A stretch of DNA of 12,618 nucleotides from assembly GCA_030632765.1 (NCBI GenBank), contig DAOVUC010000019.1, forward strand, positions 1 to 12,618. Reading direction: 5' to 3'. The notes beneath the pieces are model-generated. The model saw only the letters and a program-made list of their open reading frames with translations, had not been told where the DNA came from and did no database searches. Below, in pieces: positions 7,223 through 12,433 of the stretch. This DNA is from Candidatus Dadabacteria bacterium (GTDB taxonomy: Bacteria > Desulfobacterota_D > UBA1144 > Nemesobacterales > UBA2774). Numbering within the stretch: position 1 is the first letter of the stretch; each line of letters opens with the position of its first letter. The translations under genes and the position numbers were made by a program.

Positions 7223-7603
7223 TTAAGAATTTACAACTGCTCTTCTTCTCATAACCACAAATCCTACTATTCCTAAAATCCCGGCCATGGCAATAAGACC
7301 CCATTCGGATAGGGTGGGAACTGCGGATACAGGAAATTCAAATCCGTCACAGTCACCCACTTGACCTTGAAAGCCGCTGGCAATAGAAAAACCACCAACA
7401 TTTGGGGTAAAGCAAATACTCCAAAGATCAAGATCAAACGCCGTGTTGATAGGTCTTGGAAGCCCTGTGCCATTACCTTCAGTGCCGCAGCTGTTTGCCT
7501 CATCAAAACACCAGCGCTCATAAACAGTTGTACCGAAGTCGAACGGGCCCTGGTTTAAATCTACGGGACCCGGGTCAGCCCGGGACAAAATCTTCGCCGT
7601 CAT
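7223..7603 (-). CDS. C-terminal part of frameshifted IPTL-CTERM secreted protein
   Basis: This is the downstream fragment of one gene broken by a frameshift; the upstream fragment is 7575-8171. The nominal ATG at 7603 lies within the other fragment's coding sequence and has no Shine-Dalgarno, so it is probably not a real start; authentic sequence begins near ADPGPVDLN. The middle (FDFGTTVYERWCFDEANSC and LDLWSICFTPNVGGFS) is an extracellular-looking Cys-containing domain. The end is a tripartite C-terminal anchor: VPTLSEWG (95-102), a hydrophobic helix LIAMAGILGIVGFVVM (103-118) and a basic RRR (119-121). This is the IPTL-CTERM signature, a putative surface-sorting signal. The total span 7223-8171 is 949 nt, one more than a multiple of 3. 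A single extra base would therefore account for the break and restore a 315-residue protein. Confidence 0.82.
   Translation of the reverse strand: MTAKILSRADPGPVDLNQGPFDFGTTVYERWCFDEANSCGTEGNGTGLPRPINTAFDLDLWSICFTPNVGGFSIASGFQGQVGDCDGFEFPVSAVPTLSEWGLIAMAGILGIVGFVVMRRRAVVNS
7569..7584. repeat. CCCGGG palindrome pair at the frameshift site
   Basis: CCCGGG occurs at 7569-7574 and 7579-7584, separated by TCAG, so the two can pair as a 6-bp all-GC hairpin in an otherwise AT-rich region. The premature stop of the secreted protein (7575-7577, minus strand) lies in its loop. Confidence 0.7.
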
Positions 7604-8171
7604 ACGGGAAATCGCTTGGAGTAATCCCTGATACTATTCCTTCTCCAAGGTCGGTAATAAAATTCCCACCTACTATCATACCATTATAATTAAACACAAT
7701 ACGCCCGTCTTGATATAACAGTATTTGAAATGTCGACGGAATATCTTGGTTTTCGTTCGTGCCTACTCCATCCCATGTAATTATTAGGGGATTGCCCGTG
7801 TTATTGTAATAAATAGTACCTATTTGAAATAAGTCCAAGTCAGTATTGAAAGGACAAATTTCCGGGTTATCAGGGTCTGAATCACTCAAGAATTCTTCCA
7901 TATATTCCCAGTGATCAAAATCTATAACACGATCCAGACCTAATCCTCCGAGCTGGATACAGCCGTTAGTGCCGACATAAGCCATATTGAAGTTGCTGCC
8001 GTTAAACGGGAACGGAAACGGCAGAGCAATTTGCTCTTCTTCTTCGTCCCCACCTGTAAGGCCTGCAAGCTCATTTCCGAAATTGTCCTGCCAGAGCGGC
8101 GGCTGCGCGTTTGCGGGAAAATATAGTCCAACTGCAAAAAGCAATACACCTATACAAAGTAAAATCCTCAT
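7575..8171 (-). CDS. N-terminal part of frameshifted secreted nidogen-like protein
   Basis: Exported protein, 198 residues before a premature TGA. The signal peptide MRILLCIGVLLFAVGLYFPANA has predicted cleavage after Ala22 (ANA|QPP). The mature part looks like a bacterial NIDO-type extracellular beta domain: LPFPFPFNGSNF, YVGTNGCIQLGG, ICPFNTDLDL, GTIYYNNTGNPLIITWDGVG, STFQILLYQDGRIVFNYNGM and EGIVSGITPSD. Ribosome binding is excellent: AAGGAGGAG lies 6 nt before the ATG. The frame ends at GVPG-like GDF..FVPG with TGA at 7575-7577, while the neighbouring frame continues to an IPTL-CTERM anchor. I read the two as one gene with a +1 frameshift at the CCCGGG repeats. Function is unknown; probably a surface or secreted adhesion-like protein. 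Confidence 0.82.
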   Translation of the reverse strand: MRILLCIGVLLFAVGLYFPANAQPPLWQDNFGNELAGLTGGDEEEEQIALPFPFPFNGSNFNMAYVGTNGCIQLGGLGLDRVIDFDHWEYMEEFLSDSDPDNPEICPFNTDLDLFQIGTIYYNNTGNPLIITWDGVGTNENQDIPSTFQILLYQDGRIVFNYNGMIVGGNFITDLGEGIVSGITPSDFPYDGEDFVPG

Positions 8172-8239
8172 CTGGTTCTCCTCCTTAAAGTTGTATTCAG
8201 TTCAGAAATTTGTATTTAACTAAGAAAACAATTTCATTG

Positions 8240-8268
8240 ATTATAGCAAAGTTATTATTGAAATACAA
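8240..8268 (-). promoter_or_regulatory. Extended -10 promoter for the IPTL-CTERM gene
   Basis: On the minus strand TGCTATAAT (a perfect TATAAT at 8245-8240 with the upstream TG of an extended -10) lies 17 nt after a weak -35, TTGTAT (8268-8263). It predicts a leader of about 60 nt before the ATG at 8171. Confidence 0.55.
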
Positions 8269-8309
8269 TGATATGTAGAGATTCCTTTTTATAATGTAAG
8301 TTCAATTTC

Positions 8310-8338
8310 TTGACAATACGTATGATGCTAAGTATGAT
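8310..8338 (+). promoter_or_regulatory. Near-consensus sigma-70 promoter of the porin cluster
   Basis: TTGACA (8310-8315) and TATGAT (8333-8338) are separated by exactly 17 nt, giving 11 of 12 consensus bases. The expected start is around 8345, about 50 nt upstream of the porin ATG. A 10-bp direct repeat GTATGATGCT (8320-8329 and 8332-8341, 12-bp period) covers the spacer and the -10. Confidence 0.8.
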
Positions 8339-8346
8339 GCTGGTAA

Positions 8347-8371
8347 ATTGATATTGAAAACGAATATCAAT
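8347..8371 (+). promoter_or_regulatory. Fur-box-like inverted repeat operator
   Basis: Perfect 9-bp arms ATTGATATT (8347-8355) and AATATCAAT (8363-8371) flank GAAAACG. The 19-bp core, positions 8350-8368, agrees with the classical E. coli-type Fur box variant GATAATGAGAACGATTATC at 16 of 19 positions. The site begins at the expected transcription start, where a bound repressor would block the strong promoter. Identity of the regulator is inferred from this similarity; another Fur-family or unrelated dimeric repressor is possible. Confidence 0.6.
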
Positions 8372-8397
8372 ATTAACTACTGGAGGTTTTTCTTAGG

Positions 8398-9987
8398 ATG
8401 AATAGACTTTTAACGCATGTAGGTACTGGTTTAGTTTTTGAAATTATTATTCCATTTTTTCTGGTTTTCTTTATTATGTTTTCAATGGATAGTTTTTCCG
8501 ATGAGCTCAATCAAAGTCAAAAAGAGTTCTCAGATTCAATAGAGTCCTACAACAATTTAAGAGCAGAGATAATAGTTGAACAGGCTAAAAATGAAGCCCA
8601 ATCTCAACAAAATAATAAAAATATCGAAGTTGCTCAGAGGCTCAGTGATGACGAAACAGAGACCCAGGATGAGAGGATCAAACAACTTGAGAAGAAACTT
8701 CAGAATGTAACAGAAGAATTACAAGAGCTTAAGAGCTCTGGTATGACGGATGACAGATTGAGTTCGATCGAAGATAAATTAAGCATTCTGGCAGAAGAAA
8801 TAGACAATATTAAATCCGCGGCAGTTGTCTCTGATCCTACATACGAGCAGGTCTATGGAGCGGCACCCGCAGCATCAAAGGTTTATCTAAAAGATAAAGG
8901 GTTGTCTATCGGTGGTTACGGCGAATTATTAGTCGGTCAGGTAAGAGAAAACGGGAACGATGTAGTAGATGCGCAAAGAGTCGTACTCTATTTCGGTTAT
9001 AAATTTACAGACAGGATAATCTTTAACTCAGAGCTTGAGTTTGAGCACGCAACGACTAGTTCAAACAAGGACGGGCAGTCAGGCTCGGTATCTGTAGAGT
9101 TTGCTCTTCTGGATTTTCTCCTCTGGCAAGAGCTTAACTTAAGAGCAGGGCTTTTACTTGCTCCTTTCGGCATAATAAACGAAGTGCATGAGCCTACAAC
9201 TTTCTTCGGGGTATTCAGACCATCTGTGGAAAGACAAATAATTCCTACAACATGGAGAGAAAACGGCTTGGGTATTTTCGGAGATTTTGATCTTGGGGAT
9301 GCGGGCTCGATAAACTATAGATCATACGCAATGAACAGTTTTGACGCCAGAGGGTTTAGAGCAGCAAACAATAGATCGCTTCGTATAAAAGGCTCCCGCG
9401 CAAGATTTAATGACATTGCCTGGGTAAGCAGGGTAGAGTATCAACCTGTGCCGTATGTGGCTTTGGGAGCTTCAATGTTTCTTGGCAATACAGGTCAGAA
9501 CCAGAATATAGAGAATGCCGATTCACCTTTTAACGGGGAGAAGTTCAGTGGGTTCTTCCAGATGTATGAGGCCGACATACAGCTCCAGTACAGGGGATTT
9601 GAGGCGAGAGGACTTTTTGTTTATACAACACTTGATGACGCAGCTAGGGTAAACGCTTTAAACGATCTGGAAGGGGAGAATTCGGTAGGCAGCGAGCAGT
9701 GGGGTTATTATGTTGTAGGGGCTTACAATGTGCTCTCACTCGCAAATTTTACAAGTCAATACGCTCAGTACCTAGCTCCTTTTATCAGGTGGGAGCAGTA
9801 TGATACACAGGCAAAAGTCCCCACAGGTTTCTCGAGGAACCCCGCAAATGACAGAAACGATCTGACAATCGGGCTTAACTATAAACCAATTCCTAATGTT
9901 GTTATGAAAGCAGAGTATCAAAGGTTAGATAATGAAGCCAACAGTTCTGATAATCAGTTTAATTTTGGACTTGGATATGTCTTTTAA
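8398..9987 (+). CDS. Outer-membrane porin with N-terminal coiled coil
   Basis: Outer-membrane beta-barrel channel, 529 residues. The N-terminus has a hydrophobic stretch (11-30, VFEIIIPFFLVFFIMFSM) acting as signal sequence. Residues 35-140 are polar and helical with a clear coiled coil (91-141, IKQLEKKLQNVTEELQELK...), as in trimeric porins of the DcaP or phosphate-selective O/P style. The barrel runs from about 168: GLSIGGYGELLVGQV, RVVLYFGYKFTDRIIFNSELEFEHA, LNLRAGLLLAPFGIINEVHEP, repeated aromatic strands, and a C-terminal strand ending FNFGLGYVF. The terminal Phe is the BAM assembly signal. The ATG at 8398 follows GGAGG (8382-8386) by 11 nt. It is the first gene of the cluster under the TTGACA/TATGAT promoter and Fur-like operator. 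The substrate cannot be read from sequence; a metal chelate is an inference from the operator. Confidence 0.88.
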   Translation: MNRLLTHVGTGLVFEIIIPFFLVFFIMFSMDSFSDELNQSQKEFSDSIESYNNLRAEIIVEQAKNEAQSQQNNKNIEVAQRLSDDETETQDERIKQLEKKLQNVTEELQELKSSGMTDDRLSSIEDKLSILAEEIDNIKSAAVVSDPTYEQVYGAAPAASKVYLKDKGLSIGGYGELLVGQVRENGNDVVDAQRVVLYFGYKFTDRIIFNSELEFEHATTSSNKDGQSGSVSVEFALLDFLLWQELNLRAGLLLAPFGIINEVHEPTTFFGVFRPSVERQIIPTTWRENGLGIFGDFDLGDAGSINYRSYAMNSFDARGFRAANNRSLRIKGSRARFNDIAWVSRVEYQPVPYVALGASMFLGNTGQNQNIENADSPFNGEKFSGFFQMYEADIQLQYRGFEARGLFVYTTLDDAARVNALNDLEGENSVGSEQWGYYVVGAYNVLSLANFTSQYAQYLAPFIRWEQYDTQAKVPTGFSRNPANDRNDLTIGLNYKPIPNVVMKAEYQRLDNEANSSDNQFNFGLGYVF

Positions 9988-10014
9988 GTCTGGTTAAATA
10001 TAGCTCAAGAATCT

Positions 10015-10044
10015 GGGCGTAGAAAACAAATTTCTACGCCCTTT
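10015..10044 (+). terminator. Intercistronic hairpin (attenuating terminator or mRNA stabiliser)
   Basis: A perfect 11-bp stem, GGGCGTAGAAA (10015-10025) with TTTCTACGCCC (10031-10041), has a 5-nt loop and is followed by only TTT. It lies 27 nt after the porin stop and 24 nt before the next ATG. Too little space remains for a separate promoter downstream, so it probably lets through part of the transcription or protects the porin mRNA. Confidence 0.65.
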
Positions 10045-10068
10045 GTACATCATAAGGTAGTGTGAATC

Positions 10069-10620
10069 ATGAATAAGACCATAATAGCAATATTCATAAT
10101 AATTTATTCATTCATAATAGTTTATCCTTCCGAATCCAAAGTGTTTATGAAAAGGGATGAAGCGCTTGAAACAGCTTTCCCTCAGGCGGTTAAGATAGAA
10201 AAAAAGGAGATATTCTTATCCTCTGATCAATCCCAAGAAATAGAGTCCCTCGCTAATTCTAAGAATGAGTCCAAACTCTATATTCTTTATGAGGCAAAGA
10301 ATGGGGAGAAAACATTAGGTTATGCTATAATAGACACACATTCGCTACGAACCAAGACCGAGACTGTAATGTTTGTAATCAACCCTGACGGGAGTTTAAG
10401 GCAGATGGAGATATTGGCATTTTTCGAACCTCAGGATTATCAGCCCGGAGAAAATTGGATGGAGCTTTTTGAGGACAAAGATTTGGATGATACTCTAAAG
10501 TTAGGAAAAGACATTCCGAACATTACAGGGGCAACTATTACGGCAAATTCTTTGTCACAGGCGACTAGAAGAATACTGGCGGTATTTAAAGTAGCCTCAG
10601 AGCAGGGTCAGTTAAACTAA
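10069..10620 (+). CDS. Exported FMN-binding (FMN_bind) flavoprotein
   Basis: Predicted periplasmic or membrane-attached electron carrier, 183 residues. Residues 4-20 form a hydrophobic signal sequence or anchor (IIAIFIIIYSFIIVYP). The remainder is an FMN_bind domain of the RnfG/NqrC/NosR/Ftp type. It has GYAIIDTHSLRTKTETVMFVINPDGSLRQMEILAFFEP (84-121) and the flavinylation motif NITGATIT (151-158). In that motif the last Thr of TGAT (Thr156) is the expected site for covalent FMN attachment by an ApbE-type transferase, which must be encoded elsewhere. No haem, Fe-S or other cofactor motif is present. The Shine-Dalgarno is AAGG at 10054-10057. It sits between the porin and a small membrane protein, 16 nt before the latter, so it likely passes electrons between inner-membrane and periplasmic or outer-membrane partners. 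That role is inferred. Confidence 0.85.
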   Translation: MNKTIIAIFIIIYSFIIVYPSESKVFMKRDEALETAFPQAVKIEKKEIFLSSDQSQEIESLANSKNESKLYILYEAKNGEKTLGYAIIDTHSLRTKTETVMFVINPDGSLRQMEILAFFEPQDYQPGENWMELFEDKDLDDTLKLGKDIPNITGATITANSLSQATRRILAVFKVASEQGQLN

Positions 10621-10636
10621 CAGAGGATCAGGTACA

Positions 10637-11128
10637 TTGCGCTTTTTCATCTCACCCGATATAAAAAAAAATACACTTCTAAAACTGATTGTGGCTTTTA
10701 CAGTGCTTTTTTTCCTATTCCTATGGATTACTAACCTTCTTTTATATCTTCAAATAGGTTTTAGCTACGAGTCAGTTGTGGAATATTATCTTGGCTCTGA
10801 GCAGGATTTTAGACCACCGAGAAGCTACCTCGGAATGCTGGAAGAGGCCCATTTTCACTTCTTCGCGATGGCGATAATTCTTGTAACCCTAACTCATCTG
10901 ATTTTATTTACAAAGATTAACAATTTCTGGAAACTCCTGCTTATTCTGTCCTCGTACTTATCTGCTTTGGGTGATATAGCGGGGGGGTGGCTCATACTCT
11001 ATGTAAGCCCTGAATTTGCCTACTTAAAGATAGCATCATTAATAGTCCTTCAGGTTTCTCTAGCTGCTTTGATGATTATAGTTATATGGTTTCTTTACGG
11101 ATATAGCGATCGTAAAACTAGCTATTAG
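10637..11128 (+). CDS. Four-helix inner-membrane protein, function unknown
   Basis: Small integral membrane protein of 163 residues, not assignable to a named family with certainty. Predicted helices are at about 16-38, 72-92, 97-120 and 130-154. Between the first two lies a charged loop with GSEQDFRPPRSYLGMLEEAHFHF. The start of helix 2 carries EEAHFHFF (Glu69, Glu70, His72, His74) and its other end His87, 13 residues after His74. This spacing could bind haem or metal, though a bis-His haem would need a further ligand from another helix or subunit. Helix 3 holds a buried Asp113 in LGDIAGGW. The start is TTG at 10637, preceded by GAGG (10623-10626); no ATG occurs before residue 67. It is the last gene of the porin cluster, 16 nt after the FMN protein, and may be its membrane redox or transport partner. 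Confidence 0.75.
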   Translation: MRFFISPDIKKNTLLKLIVAFTVLFFLFLWITNLLLYLQIGFSYESVVEYYLGSEQDFRPPRSYLGMLEEAHFHFFAMAIILVTLTHLILFTKINNFWKLLLILSSYLSALGDIAGGWLILYVSPEFAYLKIASLIVLQVSLAALMIIVIWFLYGYSDRKTSY

Positions 11129-11146
11129 TAGATTTCCAATATGAAA

Positions 11147-12433
11147 TTAAACTAGATTGAGCTTTTTTCTGAGTTTACTAACGTCGTAATAAGGCTCCCC
11201 ACGGTTTTTAGCTTGTTCATATATGATCTCAAGCTCATCTATTACTGAATTAAGCTTTACTCTCCCATCTTTAGTTTTCAAAGCATCTATAGGAGACTTC
11301 CCATCCAGTATTTCAAGAGGCGTGTTTACCCATTTATCGTAATGACTATCTAGCTCTGAATCGAGCTCGACCTTGTTCTTTATTCCTAGCGGGTATTTCT
11401 TTAATTTCTTTGTTTCACTCTTGCTCTTATCTATGAATTTGTCCTGTTCTTTTATAGTGTCTTCTAAGTGTTTAATGTGCCCCTTGCATTGCTTCTCTAT
11501 TTTAGCTTTAGCTTTCGCAAGCATCTCTACTGAATAGCATTCAATGCGTAATTTAGTTTTTTCTATCTCTAAAGTGCCGGTAATTTTATTTCTTCCTACT
11601 TTTTCCCAAGAGAATATTCTAATTTCTTCGGTTTCATCGCTAATTTCTTTTAATGATTTAATTTTCTCGATATTCTTTATGCATTGCTCAAATTCGTCTA
11701 CAAAGTAATTTGCAGTTGCCAGTACAAATTCATCACCTTCAGGAGTTACAAAATGCGGGTGGCTGGCAACGTCTTCAATGTAATAGCCAATCCGAAATCC
11801 CCAATCCTTTAAATACTCCCTTTTAGTTTTTTGATTCCCGTATAGTTCTTTATACTCTTTAAGTTCTCTGTCGAAAAATTCAGTAATAAGGTTTTTAAAA
11901 GTAGCCGGATAAAGTGAGACTATTCCTGAAAAGTAATATTGATTCCCGATTTTAAGTGGTCTTGCCGCAATTATATCAGTACGTTTTATTTGCTTGGAAG
12001 ATGCCTTGTCTAAAACTTCAAATACTTTTCCTGTAAATATATCTTTTATAACGCACTTCTCACCCGAGAAGACTTCTTTAACCTCAAAAAAGCTATATAT
12101 GCTTTTTATCCAGTCTATTATTAGTTCCTTCTCAGTATCCGATAATTCCTTACCCTCATCTAAATAAAATCTTTCTATTACTCTTTTTTCTGAATCCAGC
12201 AGCTTAAAGTCATATAAGAACCAATCGAGGAATTTCCCAAATGTAAGCTCATCTATATTCTCTTCGCTAATATCTTCACTAGTAAATTCAGGGGTGTTTT
12301 TCCAAATATAAAATGCTTCTCCAATTTGGGATTGGATCTCTGCATTCTCAGAATAATCCACCAATTTTTTCCTGAGCTCCTTCTCTATTTGATCAAACTC
12401 GTATCGTGTAATATCTGCAACCGTTTCAGTCAT
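11147..12433 (-). CDS. Uncharacterised 428-residue protein
   Basis: Large, charged, Lys/Glu-rich protein without signal peptide or membrane helix, so probably cytoplasmic. I do not recognise a characterised family. Three segments stand out. Residues 65-145 (FGKFLDWFLYDFKLLD, IERFYLDEGKELSDTE, VIKDIFTGKVFEVLDKA) look like the N-terminal domain of uncharacterised proteins that sometimes carry a C-terminal SEC-C zinc motif; no Cys cluster is present here. Residues 285-340 contain GTLEIEKTKLRIECYSVEML followed by a helical, coiled-coil-like stretch. Residues 365-402 (YDKWVNTPLEILDGKSPIDAL then DGRVKLNSVIDELE) recall a W...P...L.GKTP.eA motif seen in toxin-binding or DUF-type C-terminal domains. 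The ATG is the first possible start, since an in-frame TAA lies two codons upstream; AAGGAG is 14 nt away, rather far. It is convergent with the porin cluster, 18 nt apart, without a visible terminator. Confidence 0.7.
   Translation of the reverse strand: MTETVADITRYEFDQIEKELRKKLVDYSENAEIQSQIGEAFYIWKNTPEFTSEDISEENIDELTFGKFLDWFLYDFKLLDSEKRVIERFYLDEGKELSDTEKELIIDWIKSIYSFFEVKEVFSGEKCVIKDIFTGKVFEVLDKASSKQIKRTDIIAARPLKIGNQYYFSGIVSLYPATFKNLITEFFDRELKEYKELYGNQKTKREYLKDWGFRIGYYIEDVASHPHFVTPEGDEFVLATANYFVDEFEQCIKNIEKIKSLKEISDETEEIRIFSWEKVGRNKITGTLEIEKTKLRIECYSVEMLAKAKAKIEKQCKGHIKHLEDTIKEQDKFIDKSKSETKKLKKYPLGIKNKVELDSELDSHYDKWVNTPLEILDGKSPIDALKTKDGRVKLNSVIDELEIIYEQAKNRGEPYYDVSKLRKKLNLV

Follow-up and report, generated by a model that had tools for sequence, protein, structure and literature searches.

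What could a porin, a flavin-binding protein and a small histidine-bearing membrane protein do together, and are they one system at all? The question is raised by a contig of a Candidatus Dadabacteria genome (contig DAOVUC010000019.1 of assembly GCA_030632765.1), whose entire 12,618 nucleotides make up the window analyzed here (contig G000:C240; genome G000 is 83.6% complete and 1.83 Mb in size). Its close database relatives, where named, are Candidatus Dadabacteria, Thermodesulfobacteriota, Deltaproteobacteria, Thermodesulfobacteriales, Desulfobacterota, and Bacterium HR37. A sequence-only reading of the window had singled out three genes on one strand with small gaps as a possible redox or metal system, and open reading frame (ORF) calling places them just so on the plus strand, with intergenic gaps of 81 and 16 bp: a porin-like outer-membrane protein (8398..9987), a predicted periplasmic flavin mononucleotide (FMN)-binding protein similar to RnfG/NqrC (10069..10620), and a predicted inner-membrane protein of four helices (10637..11128; PF27139), which we call HxH for its His-x-His pair. 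We consider it rather probable that the three genes encode an ApbE-dependent module that spans the cell envelope and transfers electrons for the acquisition of iron, most likely by reduction of Fe(III). This reading is built on the composition of the gene set, its conservation, the fold and motif of the FMN-binding protein, the linkage to apbE and iron genes, and Fur-like boxes; from these we infer flavinylation, which way the electrons move, what HxH does and with which cofactor, the substrate of the porin, and repression by Fur.

Conservation of the gene set

The survey comprised 386 genomes, 57 of them from the phylum of the window, and relatives of HxH were found in 72. Within the phylum, HxH occurs in 42 genomes and the FMN gene in 41; both are present in 41 of the 57, neither in 15, and HxH alone in one (G050; Fisher p 7e-13). 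The two genes are adjacent on one contig in 38 of these 41 genomes, have ApbE between them in G001 and G002, and both lie at contig ends in G025. Porin relatives are found in 43 of the 57 genomes, some of them being weak paralogs elsewhere.

For ApbE, the enzyme that would attach the flavin, a match below 1e-20 is present in 40 of the 41 genomes with both HxH and the FMN gene (none in G042, which is 80% complete) versus 3 of the 16 others (Fisher p 3e-9); with matches up to 0.001 the latter number becomes 8 of 16, five of which are f8 genomes with weak matches. Of the 42 phylum genomes with HxH, 27 have the ApbE gene linked to the operon, where it may stand upstream of the porin, in divergent orientation, behind HxH and convergent with it, or in the space that separates FMN from HxH. 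In the family of the window it lies away from the operon, and G000 encodes one ApbE, at G000:C286:8236-9045 (E 5e-72).

The iron permease FTR1 (PF03239) adjoins the operon in 16 of the 42 genomes. In 12 it is a long protein divergent from the porin, with a cytochrome c domain recognized by Pfam in G014; the seven inspected f7 relatives of the same cluster show CxxCH. In four f8 genomes it is short, three times downstream of HxH and a small protein in the same direction and once divergent. Nine f8 genomes also encode a protein of 116-137 residues without Pfam match (cluster c9; L077 10141-10554 and relatives) that accompanies ApbE, and FTR1 where present, FTR1 not being found in five of these nine. 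FeoB_N was discarded as a marker, since it matches all 57 genomes via other GTPases and falls below 1e-50 in 10 only; its tally is not used.

Outside the phylum, HxH relatives are found in 30 of 329 genomes, representing 26 families and 31 loci; the named sources include Nitrospira sp., a Nitrospirae bacterium, and Candidatus Binatia. An FMN gene (E 1e-10 or better) is nearby in 18 of the 31 loci, a porin relative in 15, and ApbE in 15. The 18 exclude G113 (weak FMN match, 7e-4) and G343 (5e-3, at a contig end), and the 31 include distant HxH loci (G153, G140, G117, G124, G243, and a second locus of G236) whose FMN-like neighbors lack the flavinylation motif or are absent. Some of the FMN, ApbE, FeoB, Fur, DtxR, FTR1, and TonB-receptor queries came from outside loci, which therefore match themselves; the identity of those loci rests on Pfam or separate profile searches.

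The order of the genes varies: ApbE-porin-FMN-HxH in G104, G288, and G280, porin-FMN-HxH-ApbE in G212, FMN-ApbE-HxH in G205, and, reversed, HxH-FMN-porin in G236; FMN-ApbE fusions are found in G085, G232, and G344. Long ORFs in G236 and G117 that resembled HxH-FMN fusions were dropped, as they are overlapping genes in different frames. Iron transporters are encoded at six of the 31 loci (FTR1 at two, FeoB at four). FeoB and a DtxR-type regulator stand behind HxH in G085, G232, and G367, all of one family (f37), and the order in G236 is Fur-FeoB-HxH-FMN-porin; FTR1 is found in G344 and in G113, in the latter as a fusion with an FtrD-like domain. The chance of six in 31 is estimated at 6e-7 to 3e-5, assuming a rate of 1-2% and with three of the six coming from f37. 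In addition, a Fur gene borders the G142 locus and a TonB-dependent receptor follows in G351.

The sequence-only reading had called for a neighborhood search for the three families together with apbE and iron genes. They co-occur inside the phylum and beyond it, with apbE, FTR1, FeoB, and Fur genes among their neighbors, and neither homologs that fail to co-occur nor separate regulation was seen. The evolutionary distances of the FMN and HxH proteins are also correlated outside the phylum (r 0.80, 0 of 2000 permutations), in a comparison that used 10 outside loci and left out the phylum genomes G022, G026, G043, G044, G045, and G048; because common descent alone gives high values and genomes were left out, this correlation carries little weight. 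Behind some distant HxH relatives we observed secreted-looking proteins with the sequence AHxTPxVV (L151 4429-5034, L152 7998-8591, L157 7552-8193), which have weak or no likeness to FMN-binding proteins and no flavinylation motif.

The three proteins and their regulation

The FMN-binding protein has 183 residues, with the FMN domain at about 10363-10578. Its match to PF04205 (FMN_bind) is borderline: the cut-off is 22 bits, and the score is 21.3 bits for the single protein and 22.4 bits when the genome is searched; across the 57 phylum genomes, PF04205 detects 25 (23 above the cut-off) and a profile built here detects 41. Of the 17 best-scoring matches to its fold model, 16 are flavoprotein subunits of Rnf/Nqr, the remaining one being a Borrelia periplasmic protein. 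The predicted flavinylation site is Thr156 (codon 10534..10536, plus strand) in the sequence TGAT, which fits the described motif [S/T]GA[S/T] (PMC8238504). This threonine is invariant in 15 phylum members and 58 close relatives, as is GAT across the 58. Outside the phylum, 13 of 20 listed sequences have the motif strictly and 16 with a wider pattern; G212, G344, G140, and G117 have no match. Judging by the structure model and the motif, we regard the protein as RnfG/NqrC-like and probably carrying covalently attached FMN on Thr156.

HxH (163 residues, TTG start) has no match in local Pfam or NCBIfam. Twenty-three members searched against Pfam at E up to 1, and HxH against NCBIfam at 0.1, gave no PepSY, MsrQ, DUF4405, DsbD, NapH, or Nqr/Rnf carrier. 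PF27139 is precomputed on the protein of the window and on all relatives listed (120 of 521; 77 of 77 in another listing); we found no description of this family, and its accession is absent from the open-access literature searched. Foldseek gave no match at E up to 0.001, and a sequence search of the PDB with E values to 10 gave no relative. Structural hits of middling Z to FAT, talin, mPGES1, and LTC4S are to generic, unrelated helical bundles and were set aside.

According to a topology derived from the structure model and charge counts, the motif EEAHFH (E69 to H74; 10841..10858, plus strand) lies at the periplasmic end of transmembrane helix 2; E69, H72, and H74 are invariant in 86 aligned sequences. 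A third conserved histidine, His87 (10895..10897, plus strand), would lie near the cytoplasmic end of the same helix and is absent in more distant relatives. The His-x-His pair is retained in all compared relatives with an aligned helix 2, barring two tandem copies in G142. These divide the histidines between them: the first has H72 with arginine at position 74, and the second lacks H72 and has H74 and H87. Such a division is what a site built from two subunits would lead one to expect, and this single case would fit a shared site; the phylum of G142 is represented here by two genomes, of which only G142 had matches. At the second locus of G236, a distant HxH relative has a CxxCH motif ahead of the HxH helix.

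The porin (529 residues) begins with a coiled-coil-like stretch and has only weak matches to beta-barrel families. The match to IAT_beta, at 24.6 bits, is above the cut-off yet spans 69 residues only; among 20 relatives, five match BBP2 and one Porin_O_P, and a sequence search of the PDB gave no barrel. A second porin paralog is found in G003 (L054 485-2074, G003:C34), on a short contig that has neither an FMN nor an HxH gene, and scores better against the porin of the window than does the porin in the trio of that genome. In G019, which lacks the trio, FTR1 is found close to an 89-residue porin-like piece with a stop (G019:C1:46346-48477), as if the operon had been lost.

A regulated promoter over the genes had also been suggested. 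A sigma-70-like promoter precedes the porin at 8310..8338 on the plus strand (TTGACA at 8310-8315, TATGAT at 8333-8338, spacer of 17; 11 of 12 matches); it is the best of eight promoter-like sites in the region, where shuffled sequence averages 8.0. TTGACA is found at a comparable place in the relatives G033, G034, G036, and G040. Just downstream is a Fur-like box, GATATTGAAAACGAATATC (8350..8368, plus strand), with 14 of 19 matches to the E. coli Fur consensus used for scoring. The same score is attained by 2.5% of shuffles (p 0.025), so that the box is weak alone; it is convincing because it recurs in relatives, with a nearly identical element in G033, G034, G036, and G040 and elements of 15-16/19 in eight genomes from other genera.

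The scan for boxes covered the 33 genomes with a porin start at hand (G002, G016, G024-G026, G032, G035, and G042 were left out). Of the 14 genomes scanned in families f1 and f2, 10 have a box scoring 14/19 or more ahead of the porin, eight of them scoring 15 or 16 of 19. In G001 the box falls on the first codons of the longest ORF. Among 125 upstream regions taken as controls at the same loci, three attain 14/19, and the coordinates show one of these three to be the porin box itself, met from the side of the divergent gene; 7 of 13 FTR1 genes sited elsewhere have a Fur-like box. On these counts, the operon and FTR1 appear to belong to one iron regulon in f1 and f2. Genes of the Fur family are present in 54 of the 57 phylum genomes.

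A hairpin (10015..10041, plus strand; 11-bp stem, 5-nucleotide loop) without a long T run occupies the gap between the porin and FMN genes and is more stable than dinucleotide shuffles (z -3.75); a terminator scan of the plus strand from 8200 to 11200 listed none. Twenty-five of the 33 porin-FMN gaps had a suitable length for a folding test, and 18 of them have z below -3 against mononucleotide shuffles. The stem sequence differs between genera yet the stem persists, except in G003 and G007, which have none. Rfam gave no family for the gap hairpin (eight sources at gathering level and one stretch at E up to 1). The hairpin may set the ratio of porin to FMN and HxH proteins. The gaps of f8 (L047, L048, L049, L076, and L077) have a long outer stem of about 13 bp enclosing an inner hairpin, with weaker z of -1.0 to -3.1; those of L047, L048, L049, and L076 have no Rfam family at gathering score.

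Two neighbors of the operon were also observed. Behind HxH and convergent with it is a gene for a 428-residue protein of unknown function (11147-12433, minus strand), relatives of which lie at or near the equivalent position in 9 of 40 clustered phylum loci, some with an N-terminal stretch that we take to be SEC-C-like. Upstream of the promoter, two ORFs in different frames (7223-8171, minus strand) resemble the front and back of one secreted protein, as from a frameshift or assembly error; the front has a weak Nidogen-like match under the cut-off, and the tail of the back presumably is similar to a sorting signal.

Electron flow and alternative readings

In the mechanism that we favor, the porin would admit an iron species to the periplasm, where the RnfG/NqrC-like protein, its FMN attached covalently to Thr156 by the ApbE encoded elsewhere in this genome, would exchange electrons with the iron; most likely Fe(III) would be reduced and the iron then imported by a permease. 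HxH, in the inner membrane with its His-x-His pair facing the periplasm, would link the membrane (quinol) electron pool to the flavin, plausibly as a dimer with haem or a metal ion, and Fur would repress the operon when iron is plentiful. Reduction is favored because FeoB is a partner, one that imports Fe(II) and needs reduced iron; an FTR1 partner would also allow the reverse. We further put forward, tentatively, that PF27139 is an undescribed class of carrier, dimeric and four-helical, whose periplasmic His-x-His binds haem and which feeds an FMN protein that reduces iron admitted by a dedicated porin.

Several observations weigh against this mechanism. FTR1 and FeoB are not found near 25 of the 31 outside loci, where other transporters were not sought. 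Within the phylum, FTR1 was not found in 10 HxH genomes (G000, G016, G037, G041, G043-G046, G049, and G050), of which those of f8 have a weak match to the Nramp family. Genome G000 itself has no FTR1 and no convincing FeoB or Nramp, ZIP transporters not having been searched. Conversely, eight genomes that lack the trio do have FTR1 (G010-G013, G019, G038, G039, and G056). The regulatory signal is likewise uneven: 18 of 19 genomes of families other than f1 and f2 lack a box of at least 14/19 ahead of the porin (1 of 19 has it), and among apbE genes sited elsewhere only 1 of 14 has a Fur-like box and 13 do not. In f8, the flavinylation motif is changed in three of four aligned members (SNST, ANST, and SGST), with the threonine retained. 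Finally, H87 is absent from the porin-FMN-HxH sets of G213, G383, and G252; therefore a wire of two haems is not general.

The last point bears on what HxH does. It is possible, if doubtful, that it binds or passes iron through a His-His-Glu site and carries no electrons, the flavin reductase being fed by another membrane protein. Few residues are invariant, the two histidines and E69 being three of them, and these are predicted on the periplasmic face; H87 is not universal, the libraries used gave no match to a cytochrome family, and G000 lacks the three permease families searched. A flavoprotein needs a membrane donor, however, and HxH is its neighbor in 38 of 41 phylum genomes, while the CxxCH motif in the second locus of G236 suggests redox work.

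The direction of flow is a separate matter. Known FTR1 systems couple uptake with oxidation of iron, which would suit a reverse route in which Fe(II), or the cytochrome c of FTR1, donates electrons to the flavoprotein and these move on via HxH to quinone, as a sink for a ferroxidation-coupled permease. The permease found with the operon in 16 of 42 phylum genomes is FTR1, and its cytochrome c domain in G014, the CxxCH of the seven f7 relatives, and the FtrD-like fusion in G113 all point the same way. We nevertheless consider reverse flow rather unlikely: the partner is FeoB in the three f37 genomes and in G236, and ten HxH genomes have the module without FTR1.

It is distinctly unlikely that the set serves another acceptor, as a periplasmic reductase of general respiration or detoxification, and is near iron genes solely through co-regulation under iron limitation. 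Fur regulates many redox genes, and the 25 outside loci without FTR1 or FeoB agree with this view; other neighbors were not surveyed systematically, and a recurring enzyme could be overlooked. FTR1 or FeoB stands directly beside the genes in separate lineages, however, as do Fur or DtxR regulators. A chance neighborhood of three unrelated genes, for which one could cite the weakness of each single element of the window (promoter count, box probability), is excluded by the conservation of the set, with adjacency in all but three of the 41 phylum genomes, apbE intervening in two of these, and recurrence outside.

Relation to described flavinylation systems

Systems close to the electron-transfer module that we favor have been described. 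Flavinylation has been tied to the uptake of iron, among other places in P19/FTR1 clusters that contain FMN-binding genes, and membrane electron carriers have been divided into five classes (PMC8238504); cytochromes of the DUF4405/FezC type were later added as flavinylation-associated carriers (PMC11334425). In the P19/FTR1 clusters, an FMN-binding protein is encoded with the FTR1 permease and is proposed to assist iron uptake by redox chemistry (PMC8238504), as we propose here. These clusters number 260, are mostly Gram-positive, and are defined by P19 (PF10634), which was not searched here. The set described here has in addition a porin and HxH, and FeoB replaces FTR1 in some of its lineages; the trait of FTR1 within the cluster is present in 16 of 42 phylum HxH genomes and was not found in G000.

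HxH is comparable to the PepSY-like, MsrQ-like, and DUF4405/FezC cytochromes, which are likewise membrane proteins with conserved histidines whose genes neighbor those for ApbE and for a flavinylated protein of the periplasm, and which have links to iron and Fur (PMC8238504; PMC11334425). It differs from them in having no sequence match to any, four predicted helices, and its H-x-H pair at one end of one helix. RnfG/NqrC has its fold and flavinylation motif in common with the FMN-binding protein, but no Rnf/Nqr membrane subunit is present among the nine window proteins scanned (such subunits were not searched elsewhere).

The word porin is absent from the main texts of PMC8238504 and PMC11334425, and the parts of them compared give no such gene set; nor was a description of a porin-FMN-HxH operon found in the open-access literature searched. 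The statement of the sequence-only reading that no known named operon has this composition therefore stands as far as the searches go, although flavinylated iron-assimilation systems are a kind already described (PMC8238504).

For PF27139, a family for which we found no described function, genome context in the phylum and in 26 outside families provides a tie to iron uptake, although only part of these families show the iron link, and points to likely partners: the FMN-binding protein, ApbE, the porin, and FTR1 or FeoB. If the reading is true, HxH would be one more membrane component among flavinylation-based electron routes, and the set as a whole is probably an uncharacterized route for redox-assisted iron uptake that has been kept together in very different bacteria.

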